The notes under the pieces: model-generated
What the model was told of the DNA's origin: nothing
The model's input: the letters and a program-made list of their open reading frames with translations, nothing else
Database searches by the model: none
Shown: in pieces, positions 47,494-63,210 of the stretch
Layout: each line of letters starts with the position of its first letter
How positions within the stretch are numbered: the first letter of the stretch is position 1
Program-made: the position numbers and the translations under genes
NCBI RefSeq assembly: GCF_007785775.2
Contig: NZ_VNIK02000003.1
Span: 1-64,000 of the forward strand
Reading direction: 5' to 3'
DNA from: Flagellimonas hadalis
GTDB taxonomy: Bacteria > Bacteroidota > Bacteroidia > Flavobacteriales > Flavobacteriaceae
DNA length: 64,000 nt

Positions 47494-48576
47494 CTATGCG
47501 TTGATGATCTTTTCCTGGTGGTTGATGGATTCTTGGTGGATGGCCTTGAACATCTTCAAGATGAACTCCTCGCTCAATCCCCTCTGCTCTCCTTCCAGGA
47601 TCATATTGCCCAAAATGGCGTTCCAACGGTTGCTTTGCAATACGGCAACGTTCTTTTGCTTTTTGAGCTCACCGATGCCGTCGGAAACCTTCATCCGTTT
47701 CCCGAGCAGGTCGATCAATTGGTTGTCCAACACATCGATCTGCGCCCTTAGGTTGCTCAATTTGCTGTTGTACTCAGCCTCTTCGTCGGTTTCTTTTCGT
47801 ATGCGGAGATCTTTCATGATCTGTACCAATCGTTTAGGGGTCACTTGCTGTGCAGCATCGCTCCAGGCATTGTCCGGATCGTGGTGGGTCTCGATCATCA
47901 ACCCGTCAAAGTTCAGGTCCAAAGCCGTTTGTGATACGTCAAAGATCATGTCACGCTTTCCGGTAATATGGCTCGGGTCGTTGATGATGGGCAGGTCGGG
48001 GAACTTCGTTTGAAGCTCGATGGCCAACTGCCATTCGGGAATGTTTCGGTACTTGGTCTTCTCATAAGTGGAAAAGCCTCGGTGGATCACCCCCAATTTC
48101 TTGATATTGGCCGTATGCAGACGCTCCACAGCACCCAGCCATAAGGATAGGTCCGGGTTGACGGGGTTCTTCACCAATACGATCTTATCGGTACCTTCAA
48201 GGGCATCCGCAATTTCCTGGATGATGAACGGGCTCACGGTAGATCGCGCACCGATCCACAACAGGTCCACATCGTATTCCAATGCAAGGTCCACATGGGC
48301 CCTATTGGCCACCTCGGTAGCGGTCTTCAATCCGGTTTCCTCTTTCACCTTCTGCAACCATTTCAATCCTATGGCTCCCACTCCCTCAAAATTTCCAGGG
48401 CGCGTTCTGGGTTTCCAGATCCCGGCACGGTAGTAGCTCACATCGGTATCCTTCAGTTCGTGTGCGATCTTCAGTACCTGATCTTCTGTCTCGGCACTGC
48501 ATGGCCCGGCTATTACCAATGGATGTGACAGGTTCATATCATCCAACCATTTCCTCATTTCCTTTTTGTTTTCCAT
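47494..48576 (-). CDS. Bifunctional DAHP synthase / chorismate mutase
   Basis: A 360-residue fusion. The N-terminal ~260 residues are a DAHP synthase of the type I-beta class (VIAGPCSAETEDQVL, GIWKPRTRPGNFEGVG, LVKNPVNPDLSLWLGA, DPSHITGKRD). The C-terminal ~90 residues are an AroQ-type chorismate mutase (LSNLRAQIDVLDNQLIDLLGKRM, with VAVLQSNRW). It thus combines the first shikimate step with the step committing chorismate to Phe/Tyr. Last gene of the operon; feedback control through the mutase domain is known in this fusion type. Confidence 0.93.
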   Translation of the reverse strand: MENKKEMRKWLDDMNLSHPLVIAGPCSAETEDQVLKIAHELKDTDVSYYRAGIWKPRTRPGNFEGVGAIGLKWLQKVKEETGLKTATEVANRAHVDLALEYDVDLLWIGARSTVSPFIIQEIADALEGTDKIVLVKNPVNPDLSLWLGAVERLHTANIKKLGVIHRGFSTYEKTKYRNIPEWQLAIELQTKFPDLPIINDPSHITGKRDMIFDVSQTALDLNFDGLMIETHHDPDNAWSDAAQQVTPKRLVQIMKDLRIRKETDEEAEYNSKLSNLRAQIDVLDNQLIDLLGKRMKVSDGIGELKKQKNVAVLQSNRWNAILGNMILEGEQRGLSEEFILKMFKAIHQESINHQEKIINA

Positions 48577-48584
48577 AATGCTTC

Positions 48585-49445
48585 CTATTTTTTTGTAAGT
48601 GGAATTCCTTTTAGTATTTGTTTTATTTTATTGGTATTGCTCATTTCCAGATGGACATTTTCAAAATCGTTGTCCATGATCAATTGTTTGAAGGTGGTCA
48701 GGTTTTGGATATACTCCTCCAAGGTCTCCACCACATTGTCCTTGTTCTGCTCAAATATGGGGGTCCACATATCGGGCGAACTTTTGGCCAATCGGACCGT
48801 GCTCTCAAAACCACTTCCCGCCATGTCAAAAATATCACGCTCATTTTTTTCTTTCTCAATAACCGTCTTTCCCAACATAAATGAGCTGATGTGTGATAAA
48901 TGGGATACATAGGCGATATGTTTGTCATGTGCCACGGGGTTCATGTACCGGATTCGCATTCCCATTTCCTGAAAAATGGCCAAAGCCCTTTCCTGTAGTT
49001 TGAATGCTGTTTTCTCTACCTCACAAATGATCATCGTCTTTTCAGCATACAGTCCTTCCAAGGCGGCCGATGGTCCTGAAAACTCGGTCCCCGCAATGGG
49101 GTGGCAGGCCATGAAGTTCCTTCGCTTGGGATGGTCTGCTACACTTTCGCAGATCAACCGTTTGGTGGAACCCGCATCCATCACTACAGTTTCGTCCCCC
49201 ACCGAATCCAAAATCTTGGGCAGTTCAGTGACCAGAACATTGACAGGGATACTCACATACACCATATCCGCAGTCTCCAAGGAACCATAACTTCCCTTTT
49301 CATCAATGATCCCAAGTGAGATGGCCTCTTCCAAATGGGCCTCATTCTTGTCCACACCAATGATATTGGCATGGGGATGCATTTTTTTTACATCCTTGGC
49401 GAACGACCCCCCAATCAATCCTATTCCTATTACGACTACGTCCAT
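48585..49445 (-). CDS. tyrA: Prephenate dehydrogenase
   Basis: Oxidises prephenate to 4-hydroxyphenylpyruvate on the way to tyrosine. The 286 residues have VIGIGLIGGSFAKDV as the NAD loop, then CHPIAGTEFSGP and the helical dimerisation domain (HISSFMLGKTVIEKEK, AGSGFESTVRLAKSSPDMW). No fused chorismate mutase here; that activity is in the downstream gene 8 bases away. Confidence 0.94.
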   Translation of the reverse strand: MDVVVIGIGLIGGSFAKDVKKMHPHANIIGVDKNEAHLEEAISLGIIDEKGSYGSLETADMVYVSIPVNVLVTELPKILDSVGDETVVMDAGSTKRLICESVADHPKRRNFMACHPIAGTEFSGPSAALEGLYAEKTMIICEVEKTAFKLQERALAIFQEMGMRIRYMNPVAHDKHIAYVSHLSHISSFMLGKTVIEKEKNERDIFDMAGSGFESTVRLAKSSPDMWTPIFEQNKDNVVETLEEYIQNLTTFKQLIMDNDFENVHLEMSNTNKIKQILKGIPLTKK

Positions 49446-49446
49446 G

Positions 49447-50589
49447 CTAAAATCTTTCTATGGCTTCCTTGATTTTTTCTTCTTTTACACAGAGGGAAAA
49501 TCGAATGTATCCTTCACCATTGCTGCCAAAGATGGTACCTGGCGCAATGAAAATGTCCTTCTCATACAACACCTTATCGATGAACGCTTCGGAAGAAAGT
49601 GAACGTTCGGGGAGTTTGCACCAAACGAACATGCCCACGGCATTTCGGTCGTATTCACAGCCCAGTTTATCCGCCAATTGGAACATCAGCTCCCTTCTTT
49701 TCGTGTACACTTTATCCAATTCCTCAAACCATTCGGGGCCACTTTGAAGGGCGGCAACCGCACCTTTCTGAATACCGTAGAACATACCCGAATCCATATT
49801 GCTCTTCACCTTGAGCACAGCGTTGATGTGCTCCGTACTGCCCAATACCATCCCCACACGCCAGCCGGCCATGTTGAAGGTCTTGCTGAGACTGTTCAGT
49901 TCCAAGGTGCATTCCTTTGCCCCATCGATGGCCAGAATACTCATCGGATCTTTGGACAATACAAAACTGTATGGATTGTCATTGACCAGCAAAATATTGT
50001 TCGCTTTGGCAAAATCCACCAAAGATTCCAGTTGATCCATCGTTGCTGTGGCCCCCGTGGGCATGTGTGGGTAGCTGACCCACATCAATTTCACTTTGGA
50101 GAGGTCTTTTTTGGACAGTTCTTCCAAATTGGGGAACCAACCATTTTCCAAATTCAGGTCATAGGTCACCGGAACAGCTTCAACCAAATTGGTCACGGAA
50201 GCATATGTTGGGTAGCCCGGATTGGGCAACAACACTTCGTCCCCCACGTTCAAGAACGCCATGCTGATGTGCATGATGCCTTCCTTGGAGCCCATCAAGG
50301 GCAATATTTCGGTGGAGGGATCAACGGCAACCCCAAATTTTTGTTGGTAAAAATCGGCAATGGCCTTTCTGAGCTCTGGGAGTCCCTGATAGCTTTGGTA
50401 TTGGTGTGCGCCTGCATCGGCAATGCAGTCCCTCAACGTTTCCATCACCTTTGGTGATGGCGCCAAGTCGGGACTTCCAATGCCCATGTTGATGATGGGC
50501 CTTCCTTGGTCCATCAATCCCCTTACTTCCCGCAACTTTTTGGAGAAGTAATATTCCTGCACACTGTGTAGCCTGTCCGCTGTAATCAT
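49447..50589 (-). CDS. PLP-dependent aromatic aminotransferase
   Basis: A 380-residue fold-type I aminotransferase, probably converting phenylpyruvate and 4-hydroxyphenylpyruvate into Phe and Tyr, as judged from its place between pheA and tyrA. Motifs: MGIGSPDLAPS, NPGYPTYASV, LMWVSYPHMPTGATA, VNDNPYSFV, and the PLP lysine in LELNSLSKTFNMAGWRVG. It overlaps the pheA stop by 4 bases and is followed by tyrA after 1 base. Confidence 0.92.
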   Translation of the reverse strand: MITADRLHSVQEYYFSKKLREVRGLMDQGRPIINMGIGSPDLAPSPKVMETLRDCIADAGAHQYQSYQGLPELRKAIADFYQQKFGVAVDPSTEILPLMGSKEGIMHISMAFLNVGDEVLLPNPGYPTYASVTNLVEAVPVTYDLNLENGWFPNLEELSKKDLSKVKLMWVSYPHMPTGATATMDQLESLVDFAKANNILLVNDNPYSFVLSKDPMSILAIDGAKECTLELNSLSKTFNMAGWRVGMVLGSTEHINAVLKVKSNMDSGMFYGIQKGAVAALQSGPEWFEELDKVYTKRRELMFQLADKLGCEYDRNAVGMFVWCKLPERSLSSEAFIDKVLYEKDIFIAPGTIFGSNGEGYIRFSLCVKEEKIKEAIERF

Positions 50590-51416
50590 ATCAACAATGC
50601 GTTTTTATATTCACCCAAGACCGTAAAATCCTCAGCCATGATCTCTAGCAGGGATTTTGCCTTGGAAAAGTGGTCATACTCTTCAAAGGTCACATCCACA
50701 AAAAAAGCATATTTCCATGGAGTCTCGATCACCGGGAGGGACTGTATCTTGGTCAGGTTCATGTTGCAATCGCTCATCACGTTCAGTACCGTGGCCAAGC
50801 TCCCCCTTTTGTGATCGGTCATAAAACGCAACGACGCTTTATTGATTTCTTCCTTGGGCAGGACCTTGTTCTGCTTTTTAAGAATGATGAAACGCGTGGC
50901 ATTGTTCTTTATGGTCTGAATTTCAGGGGCAATAATATCCAAATCATAGAGATCGGCAGCCATTTTTGGAGCAATTGCAGCAATATTAGCCAATCTGCCT
51001 TCTTTAATACGTTTGGCCGTCTCGGCGGTATCCACACTTTCCACCAATTTGATGTGCGGATGGTCCTTGAAGAACTCCTTGCACTGCAACAAGGCCATAG
51101 GGTGCGAGTGGACTTCCTTTACGTCTTCCATGGTAGTTCCCTTCAGCACCATAAGGTTGTGATGGATGCTCAGATAATGTTCCCCGATCACATGTATTTT
51201 GTTATGATACACCAGGTTATAATTCGGGATAATGGAACCCGCGATGGAATTTTCAATGGCCATGATGCCTTTGTCCGCAGTCCCATCCAACAGGTGGTCG
51301 ATGATGGCATCAAAGGTCATGCATTCCAATAACTCAATGTCATCCCCAAAAAAATCCTTTGCGACCTGATGGTGGTTGGATCCCTTGATTCCCTGTATGG
51401 CTATTTTTAAACCCAT
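50586..51416 (-). CDS. pheA: Prephenate dehydratase
   Basis: Decarboxylating dehydratase from prephenate to phenylpyruvate. The 276 residues hold a catalytic domain with NATRFIIL (the TRF motif) and a C-terminal ACT domain (KASLRFMTDHKRGSLATVL). The Phe-binding ESRP motif of the ACT domain is replaced by QSLP (NLTKIQSLPVIETPW), which may weaken feedback by Phe. No fused mutase. First gene of the operon; its ATG lies only 4 bases after the T-run of an attenuator (51420-51450), with an aromatic-rich leader peptide upstream. Confidence 0.95.
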   Translation of the reverse strand: MGLKIAIQGIKGSNHHQVAKDFFGDDIELLECMTFDAIIDHLLDGTADKGIMAIENSIAGSIIPNYNLVYHNKIHVIGEHYLSIHHNLMVLKGTTMEDVKEVHSHPMALLQCKEFFKDHPHIKLVESVDTAETAKRIKEGRLANIAAIAPKMAADLYDLDIIAPEIQTIKNNATRFIILKKQNKVLPKEEINKASLRFMTDHKRGSLATVLNVMSDCNMNLTKIQSLPVIETPWKYAFFVDVTFEEYDHFSKAKSLLEIMAEDFTVLGEYKNALLI

Positions 51417-51419
51417 GGC

Positions 51420-51450
51420 AAAAAAAAAGCCCCGATTTGTATCGGGACTT
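51420..51450 (-). terminator. Attenuator terminator in front of pheA
   Basis: On the minus strand, AAGTCCCGAT-ACAA-ATCGGGGCTT (10 bp, one G-T pair), with nine consecutive T residues that begin at the last stem pairs; the pheA ATG lies four bases on. It sits in front of the operon and would end transcription before pheA unless an alternative fold is formed. See the leader peptide and antiterminator entries. Confidence 0.9.
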
Positions 51451-51477
51451 CATGTATTGGTTATACTTTAAACGTAT

Positions 51478-51549
51478 CTACAACAGTCCCGTACCTCTCT
51501 TAAAAAAGAAGTAAAAATAAAAACCGTTCCAGAAATACGTGTTTGTCAT
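51478..51549 (-). CDS. Phe/Tyr-rich leader peptide of the pheA operon
   Basis: A 23-codon open frame on the minus strand, ATG at 51549-51547 and TAG at 51480-51478. The product starts MTNTYFWNGFYFYFFF and ends in KRGTGLL; 10 of 23 residues are aromatic (six Phe, three Tyr, one Trp), clustered at positions 5-16. It lies 62 bases before pheA, directly upstream of an intrinsic terminator, which is the layout of a ribosome-mediated attenuator as known for pheL/pheA and trpL in proteobacteria. It is too short for routine gene calling. Confidence 0.9.
   Translation of the reverse strand: MTNTYFWNGFYFYFFFKRGTGLL
51485..51491 (-). promoter_or_regulatory. Antiterminator segment inside the leader peptide
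   Basis: CGGGACT on the minus strand (codons 20-22 of the leader peptide) is exactly complementary to AGTCCCG in the 5' arm of the terminator (51443-51449). A ribosome stalled at codons 5-13 leaves it free to pair, preventing the terminator; a ribosome that reaches the stop codon covers it. Confidence 0.75.
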
Positions 51550-51766
51550 TTCGATGTAAATTCCCGGCTAATTTAGGTATTCAATCCGAAAATGACGATC
51601 ATTCATAAATTTTTTTTGATTTTTTTTGAAAAAGCCAATTTCATTGCAAATTGTATCCAAGAAAACGCCCTTTTTTTGAGAATTCATTTCCCATTGCGAT
51701 TTGAACTCGCCAGAAGTTTCCACATTTCAGGCCAAACAAAGGAATGGATTGAAACATCTAAAAGTG
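51550..51766. other. AT-rich intergenic region between pheA leader and gldA
   Basis: No gene seen. It contains runs of T (TTTTTTTTGATTTTTTTTG at about 51609-51627). The promoter for the pheA leader must lie here on the minus strand, but no clear TAnnTTTG box is visible; TAAATTAG about 30 bases before the leader ATG is the nearest resemblance. Confidence 0.5.
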
Positions 51767-63066: not shown

Positions 63067-63205
63067 GTTATCCTTCCCCAGTGGCAGGATCATGCGCCGT
63101 ACCTTCCCGATCACGGTTCAGGACAAGGGTAGAATGTAGCACCTTCTCGAAGTCGAGGGTTGCTAAGGCTTCGCAGGGTCCAATCCCTCCACCTTTCTTG
63201 ATAAC
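63067..63205 (-). ncRNA. SAM-I (S-box) riboswitch
   Basis: About 139 nt upstream of metH-N on its strand. The P1 stem is GTTATC (63205-63200) with GATAAC (63072-63067). The conserved core is present in order: GGTGGAGGGATTGGACCCTG, the GAAGCC and GCAACC elements and AAGGTGCTACATTCTACC. P3 (TCGACTTCGA region) and a long P4/P5 part follow. Binding of S-adenosylmethionine would turn off the methionine-synthesis operon when SAM is plentiful. Confidence 0.93.
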
Positions 63206-63210
63206 ACTTT

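Follow-up and report, generated by a model that had tools for sequence, protein, structure and literature searches.

A probable ribosome-mediated attenuator upstream of the pheA operon in Flagellimonas hadalis and its relatives in the class Bacteroidia

As judged from nucleotide sequence and from comparison with relatives, the pheA–aminotransferase–tyrA–DAHP synthase/chorismate mutase operon of Flagellimonas hadalis is very probably controlled by a ribosome-mediated transcription attenuator. The window, that is the whole stretch of 64,000 nucleotides that was analysed, carries in this order a promoter-like box, a leader ORF, a terminator with nine T residues and the genes pheA, aminotransferase, tyrA and DAHP synthase/chorismate mutase, all on the minus strand. 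A preliminary description of this DNA had given the same gene order behind the leader. pheA, the first gene of the cluster (50586..51416; minus strand, as all features of the window named below), encodes a prephenate dehydratase with an ACT domain (NCBIfam PRK11898.1 at 200 bits, under the curated cut-off of 219), whose nearest named relative is that of Allomuricauda taeanensis (98%). The aminotransferase gene (49447..50589) has a 4-nt overlap with the pheA stop, and none of the NCBIfam models shown for its product lies above cut-off. It is followed by tyrA for prephenate dehydrogenase (48585..49445; PRK08507.1 at 389 bits, above the cut-off of 295) and by the gene for DAHP synthase with a C-terminal chorismate mutase (47494..48576; PRK12595.1 at 188.7 bits, below the cut-off of 279), leaving TyrA as the only one of the four cluster proteins that passes a curated cut-off.

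The leader ORF, MTNTYFWNGFYFYFFFKRGTGLL (51478..51549; ATG to TAG), comprises 23 codons, ten of which, i.e. codons 5–7 and 10–16, are aromatic control codons, exactly at the coordinates and codon numbers described before. A putative Bacteroidota -7 promoter box, TAAATTAG (51568..51575), matching TAnnTT[AT]G, lies 18 nt 5' of its ATG. Between leader ORF and pheA sits an intrinsic terminator (51420..51451) with an 11-pair stem including one G-U (51451..51426), a 4-nt loop and nine T (51428..51420), separated by the three nucleotides GCC from the pheA ATG at 51416. The preliminary description was right about the nine T residues, whereas its 10-bp stem and its distance of 4 bases to the pheA ATG need correction to 11 pairs and 3 nt, respectively. 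The terminator scan on its own provides no evidence, as it returned 15 sites in the 12-kb surroundings with 14.1 expected. Segment 2, CGGGACT, which represents the 5' half of the antiterminator (51485..51491; codons 20–22, ORF nt 59–65), is the exact reverse complement of segment 3, AGTCCCG (51443..51449), in the 5' arm of the terminator, again as originally noticed. Segment 3 is thereby common to antiterminator (2:3) and terminator (3:4). An additional pairing had escaped the earlier account: segment 1, AACGGTTTT (51520..51528; codons 8–10), pairs with GGGACTGTT according to both folding and comparison, and encloses an inner hairpin formed by TACTTCTTT and AGAGAGGTA (51492..51513). This protector pairing (1:2) completes the four-segment layout of an attenuator. 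The 130-nt leader region as a whole folds at -39.0 kcal/mol as compared to -21.9 (sd 3.3) for 200 shuffles (z -5.19).

According to the mechanism that we propose, transcription would start ~10–15 nt 5' of the leader ORF. With ample charged Phe- and Tyr-tRNA, the ribosome would reach the stop codon and cover segment 2, and the 3:4 terminator would form. When Phe- or Tyr-tRNA is scarce, or perhaps Trp-tRNA, which is needed at codon 7, the ribosome is predicted to stall on codons 5–16 and to break the 1:2 protector, leaving CGGGACT free. The 2:3 antiterminator could then form before segment 4 is synthesized, and polymerase would enter pheA. If no ribosome is present, the 1:2 protector would form first and should hold segment 2, making termination the default. 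The spacing of the elements, the position of the stop codon and folds in which the ribosome was masked agree in that a stall at the control codons frees segment 2 and a ribosome at the stop codon, given its usual footprint, covers it. The leading edge of a ribosome is expected ~10 nt past the A-site codon in toeprints, and 10 nt is also the commonest gap between the last aromatic codon and segment 2 in the leaders of near relatives and of two further sets described below (26/59, 17/58 and 8/36). The raw value for this commonest gap is 9, with one unpaired flanking base counted in. The gap mostly measures 5–11 nt in the two Flavobacteriaceae sets and ranges from -1 to 28 nt in the distant set, where segments were partly misplaced.

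Folding of the growing transcript adds constraints on how such a switch could operate. Without a ribosome, the probability of the 1:2 pairing is 1.00 at transcript lengths of 85–103, 0.94 at 106 and 0.08 at 108, and from 108 to 112 the 2:3 pairing is preferred over the protector in equilibrium folding (P 0.91–0.92). When nt 1–58 are masked to mimic a stalled ribosome, a transcript of length 112 folds into 2:3, and with the ribosome at the stop codon only the terminator remains. At full length, equilibrium folding yields no switch: the probability of 2:3 is 0.00–0.05 in every ribosome position tried, and the terminator wins. Since it does so in all ribosome states, readthrough would require that 2:3 forms earlier and persists. 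Likewise, because 2:3 is preferred at lengths 108–112 in the absence of a ribosome, termination by default would rest on the earlier-formed protector not being displaced in time. In these models the switch must therefore work by kinetics, both for readthrough and for default termination. Classical attenuators usually depend in this way on the order in which their segments are made.

For comparison, we assembled 110 near loci, consisting of 30 loci of the genus, in which PheA is encoded by 70 of 71 genomes, and 80 named loci, partly from the same genomes. At 109 of them, a leader is present together with six or more consecutive T, the exception being L079 with only 155 nt of upstream sequence. 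The 109 leaders correspond to 86 distinct sequences, and dropping 27 that share at least 94% identity with a retained one left 59 for the alignment A1. All of these 59 non-redundant upstreams contain an ORF with at least seven aromatics in 14 residues, as do 37 of the 40 upstreams taken from the class and from outside it; in dinucleotide shuffles the figures are 3.1% and 3.7%, respectively. Codon differences at the ten aromatic positions of the 59-leader alignment number 85, of which 79 stay aromatic (55 synonymous, 24 aromatic-to-aromatic and six other; counted per sequence, not as events). The 72 coding columns are free of gaps in 58 of the 59 relatives, the remaining one lacking the three columns of the first codon, and the position of the stop codon is kept in 59/59 (TAG 43, TGA 10, TAA 6). 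The leader ORF is thus a short frame with a run of codons for pathway products under coding constraint. Phe and Tyr are both encoded in each of 152 leaders counted within the 14-codon stretch ending at the last aromatic codon, whereas Trp occurs in this stretch in 47/59, 43/57 and 14/36 leaders of the three sets; Phe and Tyr are therefore the constant signals of the pheA leader.

Further features of the near relatives concern the initiation regions. The TAnnTT[AT]G motif is found 16–19 nt 5' of codon 1 in 44/59 and anywhere within 50 nt in 45/59, compared with 10% of shuffles. An A at -3 of the leader start is present in 45/59, and GGAG, GAGG and AGGA are all absent from the 18 nt 5' of it in 56/59. 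Flavobacterial starts are expected to carry an A at -3 (PMC6847099), and ribosomes of Bacteroidia are described to fail at recognising SD sequences (PMC9976891). The leader start with its A at -3 and its absence of SD-like motifs is as expected for flavobacteria. Codons 14–16 (TTC TTT TTT) are near-fixed even at third positions, with 0, 2 and 1 synonymous differences in 59 sequences, in contrast to 10 and 23 at codons 10 and 12; this could reflect either pairing to AGAGAGG or a constraint on the codons themselves. Finally, the ESRP-like motif of the ACT domain in PheA reads QSLP at 110/110 near loci and QSxP at 60/60 more distant ones. QSLP in F. hadalis, previously read as a hint that transcript control is the more important layer, is typical of the clade and no special sign.

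The pairings were evaluated in the same 59 sequences. For the terminator (3:4), 98.3% of cells are paired, and seven of nine counted pairs are double-changed, amounting to 22 such cells, which lies above all 500 shuffles. The antiterminator (2:3) is paired in 95.4% of cells as compared to 19–59% when slid. Its double-changed cells number four, of which those in L069, L097 and L100 are real, each affecting another pair, and that in L092 is a misalignment. Its covariation score exceeds all 500 shuffles, and the double-changed pairs, the percentage paired and the pair types are reached by 9, 16 and 63 of 500. Covariation of the antiterminator among the near relatives thus appears weak, as it rests on few events. 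The protector with its inner hairpin is paired in 93.7% of cells (93.0% for the inner hairpin); its covariation score is reached by 0/500 shuffles and four other measures by 5–7/500, so that 1:2 is both present and conserved.

As the near relatives are so alike, we added a comparison in which the duplex formed by a leader's own segments was set against duplexes with swapped segments. From 159 upstreams, six were dropped for 2:3, namely the real leaders L181, L183, L210 and L211, whose terminator was missed by the finder, and the leaderless L224 and L225; the remaining 153 include a few in which the terminator or the control run was misplaced (L164, L227, L228, L236, L243). One more with fewer than seven aromatics was left out of the aromatic-ORF, 1:2 and shuffle tests and of the Phe/Tyr/Trp counts, giving 152. 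In the near set (n=59), the own 2:3 duplex is no better than the swapped one (-13.4 vs -13.0 kcal/mol), whereas in the distant sets the own duplex is superior (-12.1 vs -9.5 and -13.7 vs -8.5 kcal/mol), with 0/5000 permutations as good. To control for base composition, the region of each leader was also subjected to dinucleotide shuffling; this yielded on average -7.4, -6.6 and -7.0 for the three sets as compared to -13.4, -12.0 and -13.7 for the own duplex, and no more than 5% of shuffles equal the own duplex in 52/59, 49/57 and 32/36 leaders. The own 1:2 duplex beats swapped ones in each of the three sets (0/5000 permutations as good) and the shuffle mean in 57/59, 43/57 and 28/36 leaders. 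Swap and shuffle controls do not fully remove relatedness among the sequences from these figures. Comparison therefore supports a 2:3 pairing that excludes the terminator weakly in near relatives and strongly in distant ones. In the latter, the pairings have been rewritten jointly, e.g. to AAGGCT/AGCCTT in L158 and CGAGACT/AGTCTCG in L160, with the aromatic codons and the typical spacing kept. The preliminary description had proposed to check relatives for the aromatic codons, for pairing of CGGGACT with AGTCCCG and for the terminator. All three turned out to be conserved and to co-vary, which supports the classical attenuation model put forward there; the regulatory response to Phe and Tyr would follow from this model.

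We next consider how far the element extends. At an E threshold of 1e-3, R1, a covariance model built from the near leaders, has hits in 216 of the 397 Flavobacteriaceae genomes. Of its weaker matches (E 1e-12 to 1e-4), 85 were listed and 60 checked, and all 60 lie directly 5' of pheA and the aminotransferase gene. A search of the own genome with R1 revealed no second copy, the next match having an E of 0.09. In a sample of the phylum, PheA is encoded by 215 of 247 genomes. Forty upstreams, picked by relationship and PheA score irrespective of upstream content, were inspected: 14 come from Flavobacteriaceae and 22 from six further families in the class, and the remaining four, from outside the class, have PheA proteins that are 42–47% identical. 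An aromatic leader followed by a terminator was recognized by eye in 38 of them (14/14, 20/22 and 4/4). In the two upstreams without a leader, pheA is located directly behind another ORF, which we take to be aroA. No convincing aromatic leader was recognized upstream of pheA in another 40 genomes, which belong to other classes and have PheA proteins of 30–41% identity; four of these upstreams, L258, L262, L263 and L270, have an ORF with 8–10 spread-out aromatics. In these samples, the leader accompanies the Bacteroidia-type pheA. The four loci placed outside the class, L239–L242, combine a Bacteroidia-like PheA (42–47%) with a leader, in contrast to the 40 loci with less similar PheA, and may reflect transfer of the operon together with its attenuator or deeper ancestry.

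Other explanations for the element have to be weighed against attenuation. The short ORF could encode a functional microprotein, aromatic and perhaps membrane-active, with the terminator merely ending its own transcript, and the near invariance of the peptide within the genus would suit this idea. Outside the genus, however, sequence and length vary freely and it is the aromatic content and the complementarity to the terminator that stay; moreover, three mutually exclusive pairings have comparative support, and the leader remains before pheA in the 60 weak matches checked. We consider a microprotein extremely unlikely on these grounds. Equally slim are the chances of a leader that senses a metabolite or protein, e.g. 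a riboswitch, a T-box or a target of TRAP/TyrR-like RNA binding, in which the ORF would be incidental. A structured 5' leader and a terminator in front of a biosynthetic operon are the layout of such systems too, but the conserved part behaves like a coding frame, and no T-box or riboswitch covers the leader at the Rfam gathering score or in the lenient list.

It is also conceivable that the hairpin acts chiefly at the level of translation, not of transcription, by masking the start region of pheA. The T run ends only 3 nt before the pheA ATG in F. hadalis, and mRNA structure is reported to tune translation initiation in flavobacteria (PMC6847099). In many relatives, however, the T run ends 17–98 nt before pheA, and the run of at least six T that follows the stem at 109 of 110 loci would be needless for a translational switch, which makes this alternative very improbable. 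Transcription attenuation by a ribosome translating the leader remains our preferred reading of the element.

Compared with known systems, the element resembles the E. coli pheA/pheL attenuator in its Phe-rich leader peptide, its alternative antiterminator and terminator and the type of its target gene, but it differs in having both Phe and Tyr codons in 152/152 leaders and in a cluster that includes tyrA and a DAHP synthase gene. Rfam places no family over the pheA leader at gathering score; the best lenient match is RF01859 Phe_leader with 28 bits (E 0.0067), short of its gathering score of 55, and the T-box model matches neither at gathering score nor in the lenient list. Bacteroid-trp (RF01692), listed by Weinberg 2010 (PMC2864571) and named a peptide leader by Rfam, is likewise a leader-peptide element of Bacteroidota and includes the trpE leader of the own genome; unlike the pheA leader, to which it gives no match at gathering or lenient score, it has Trp codons, another sequence and the trp operon as its target. 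In the 2021 transcriptome of Flavobacterium psychrophilum, a structured pheA 5' element, present in other genera and without an Rfam match, was described along with strong clues to leader-peptide attenuation before amino-acid operons (PMC9723704). It concerns the same gene in the same family and is likely the same element as here; section 19 of that report presents it without a codon run, a pairing or a distribution for pheA and without a mechanism, for which we offer a concrete proposal. Naville and Gautheret (2010) wrote that, to their knowledge, leader-peptide systems had been demonstrated in Proteobacteria and Actinobacteria alone until they described one in Firmicutes (PMC2965389). The earlier remark that attenuation is best known in proteobacteria thus needs amending, given that the trp leader RF01692 and the flavobacterial pheA 5' element (PMC9723704) are on record for Bacteroidota. 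This kind of regulation is already known and the pheA element itself has very likely been noticed before. A comparative study of attenuators by Lopatovskaya (2010) may, reportedly, already include Bacteroidota. As far as open-licence papers show, the present analysis adds comparative support at the level of codons and pairings, a description of the protector and of the spacing, examples of tandem modules and a distribution across the class.

More generally, the chances are about even that attenuation of pheA is an old regulator of Bacteroidia, which travels with the pheA operon of the Bacteroidia type, is sometimes doubled (tandem copies in 3 of 40 upstreams) and, together with trp, his and ilv leaders, constitutes a main control of amino acid synthesis there. 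If the model is true, the pheA leader would sense Phe and Tyr jointly, with Trp as an optional third input. Ribosome-mediated attenuation requires that the lead ribosome follows closely behind RNA polymerase, and the model would imply tight coupling of transcription and translation, in leaders at least, within a class in which ribosomes disregard SD sequences. Four such leaders in one flavobacterial genome, with the one of pheA reaching well beyond the family, could provide a natural assay of coupling in Bacteroidia.

The three other leaders of the own genome were recognized as follows. The hisG leader, MRNNTVHHHHFYTCPQAR (L208, about 1193–1310), contains CTCAAGCG, which is by eye complementary to the terminator arm CGTTTGAG. 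It shares complementary segments and a terminator with the well-known hisL-type attenuator of his operons, and it has His codons and a separate locus. The trpE leader, MKNNIANNWWWNNLLRKS (L289, 2019–2131), scores 65.4 bits with RF01692 and is followed by a terminator seen by eye, as is the Ile/Val-rich ilvD leader, MKRNNPVISVVIIVPNLE (L293). Upstreams of two homoserine dehydrogenase genes were inspected as well, and one of them has a Thr/Ile-rich ORF, MKSLSSIFTITITTPLG (L295, about 697–750), shortly before an aspartokinase-like start (MKILKFGGTSV...); by eye no clear terminator is visible in this region, and the ORF is a candidate thr leader that was not counted. Two tandem leader-terminator modules precede pheA in L219, L227 and L248, which belong to two families, in each case within 480–520 nt of the gene. 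The successive leaders are MAYRSAYYFYFFCFFSSCRG and MNCMGYTYYYFFSLMDHRRLWVV in L219, and MLQTRFFFGYYYFYAAA and MVPTQQVFFTYGYYFFYLKKPARCCQC in L227. Apart from these leaders, a Flavo-1 RNA (RF01705, 78.6 bits) was detected around pheA in one Flavobacteriaceae genome (L244, 1289–1366), and the window of F. hadalis carries a SAM riboswitch (RF00162, 57.9 bits) at 63096–63207 on the minus strand.
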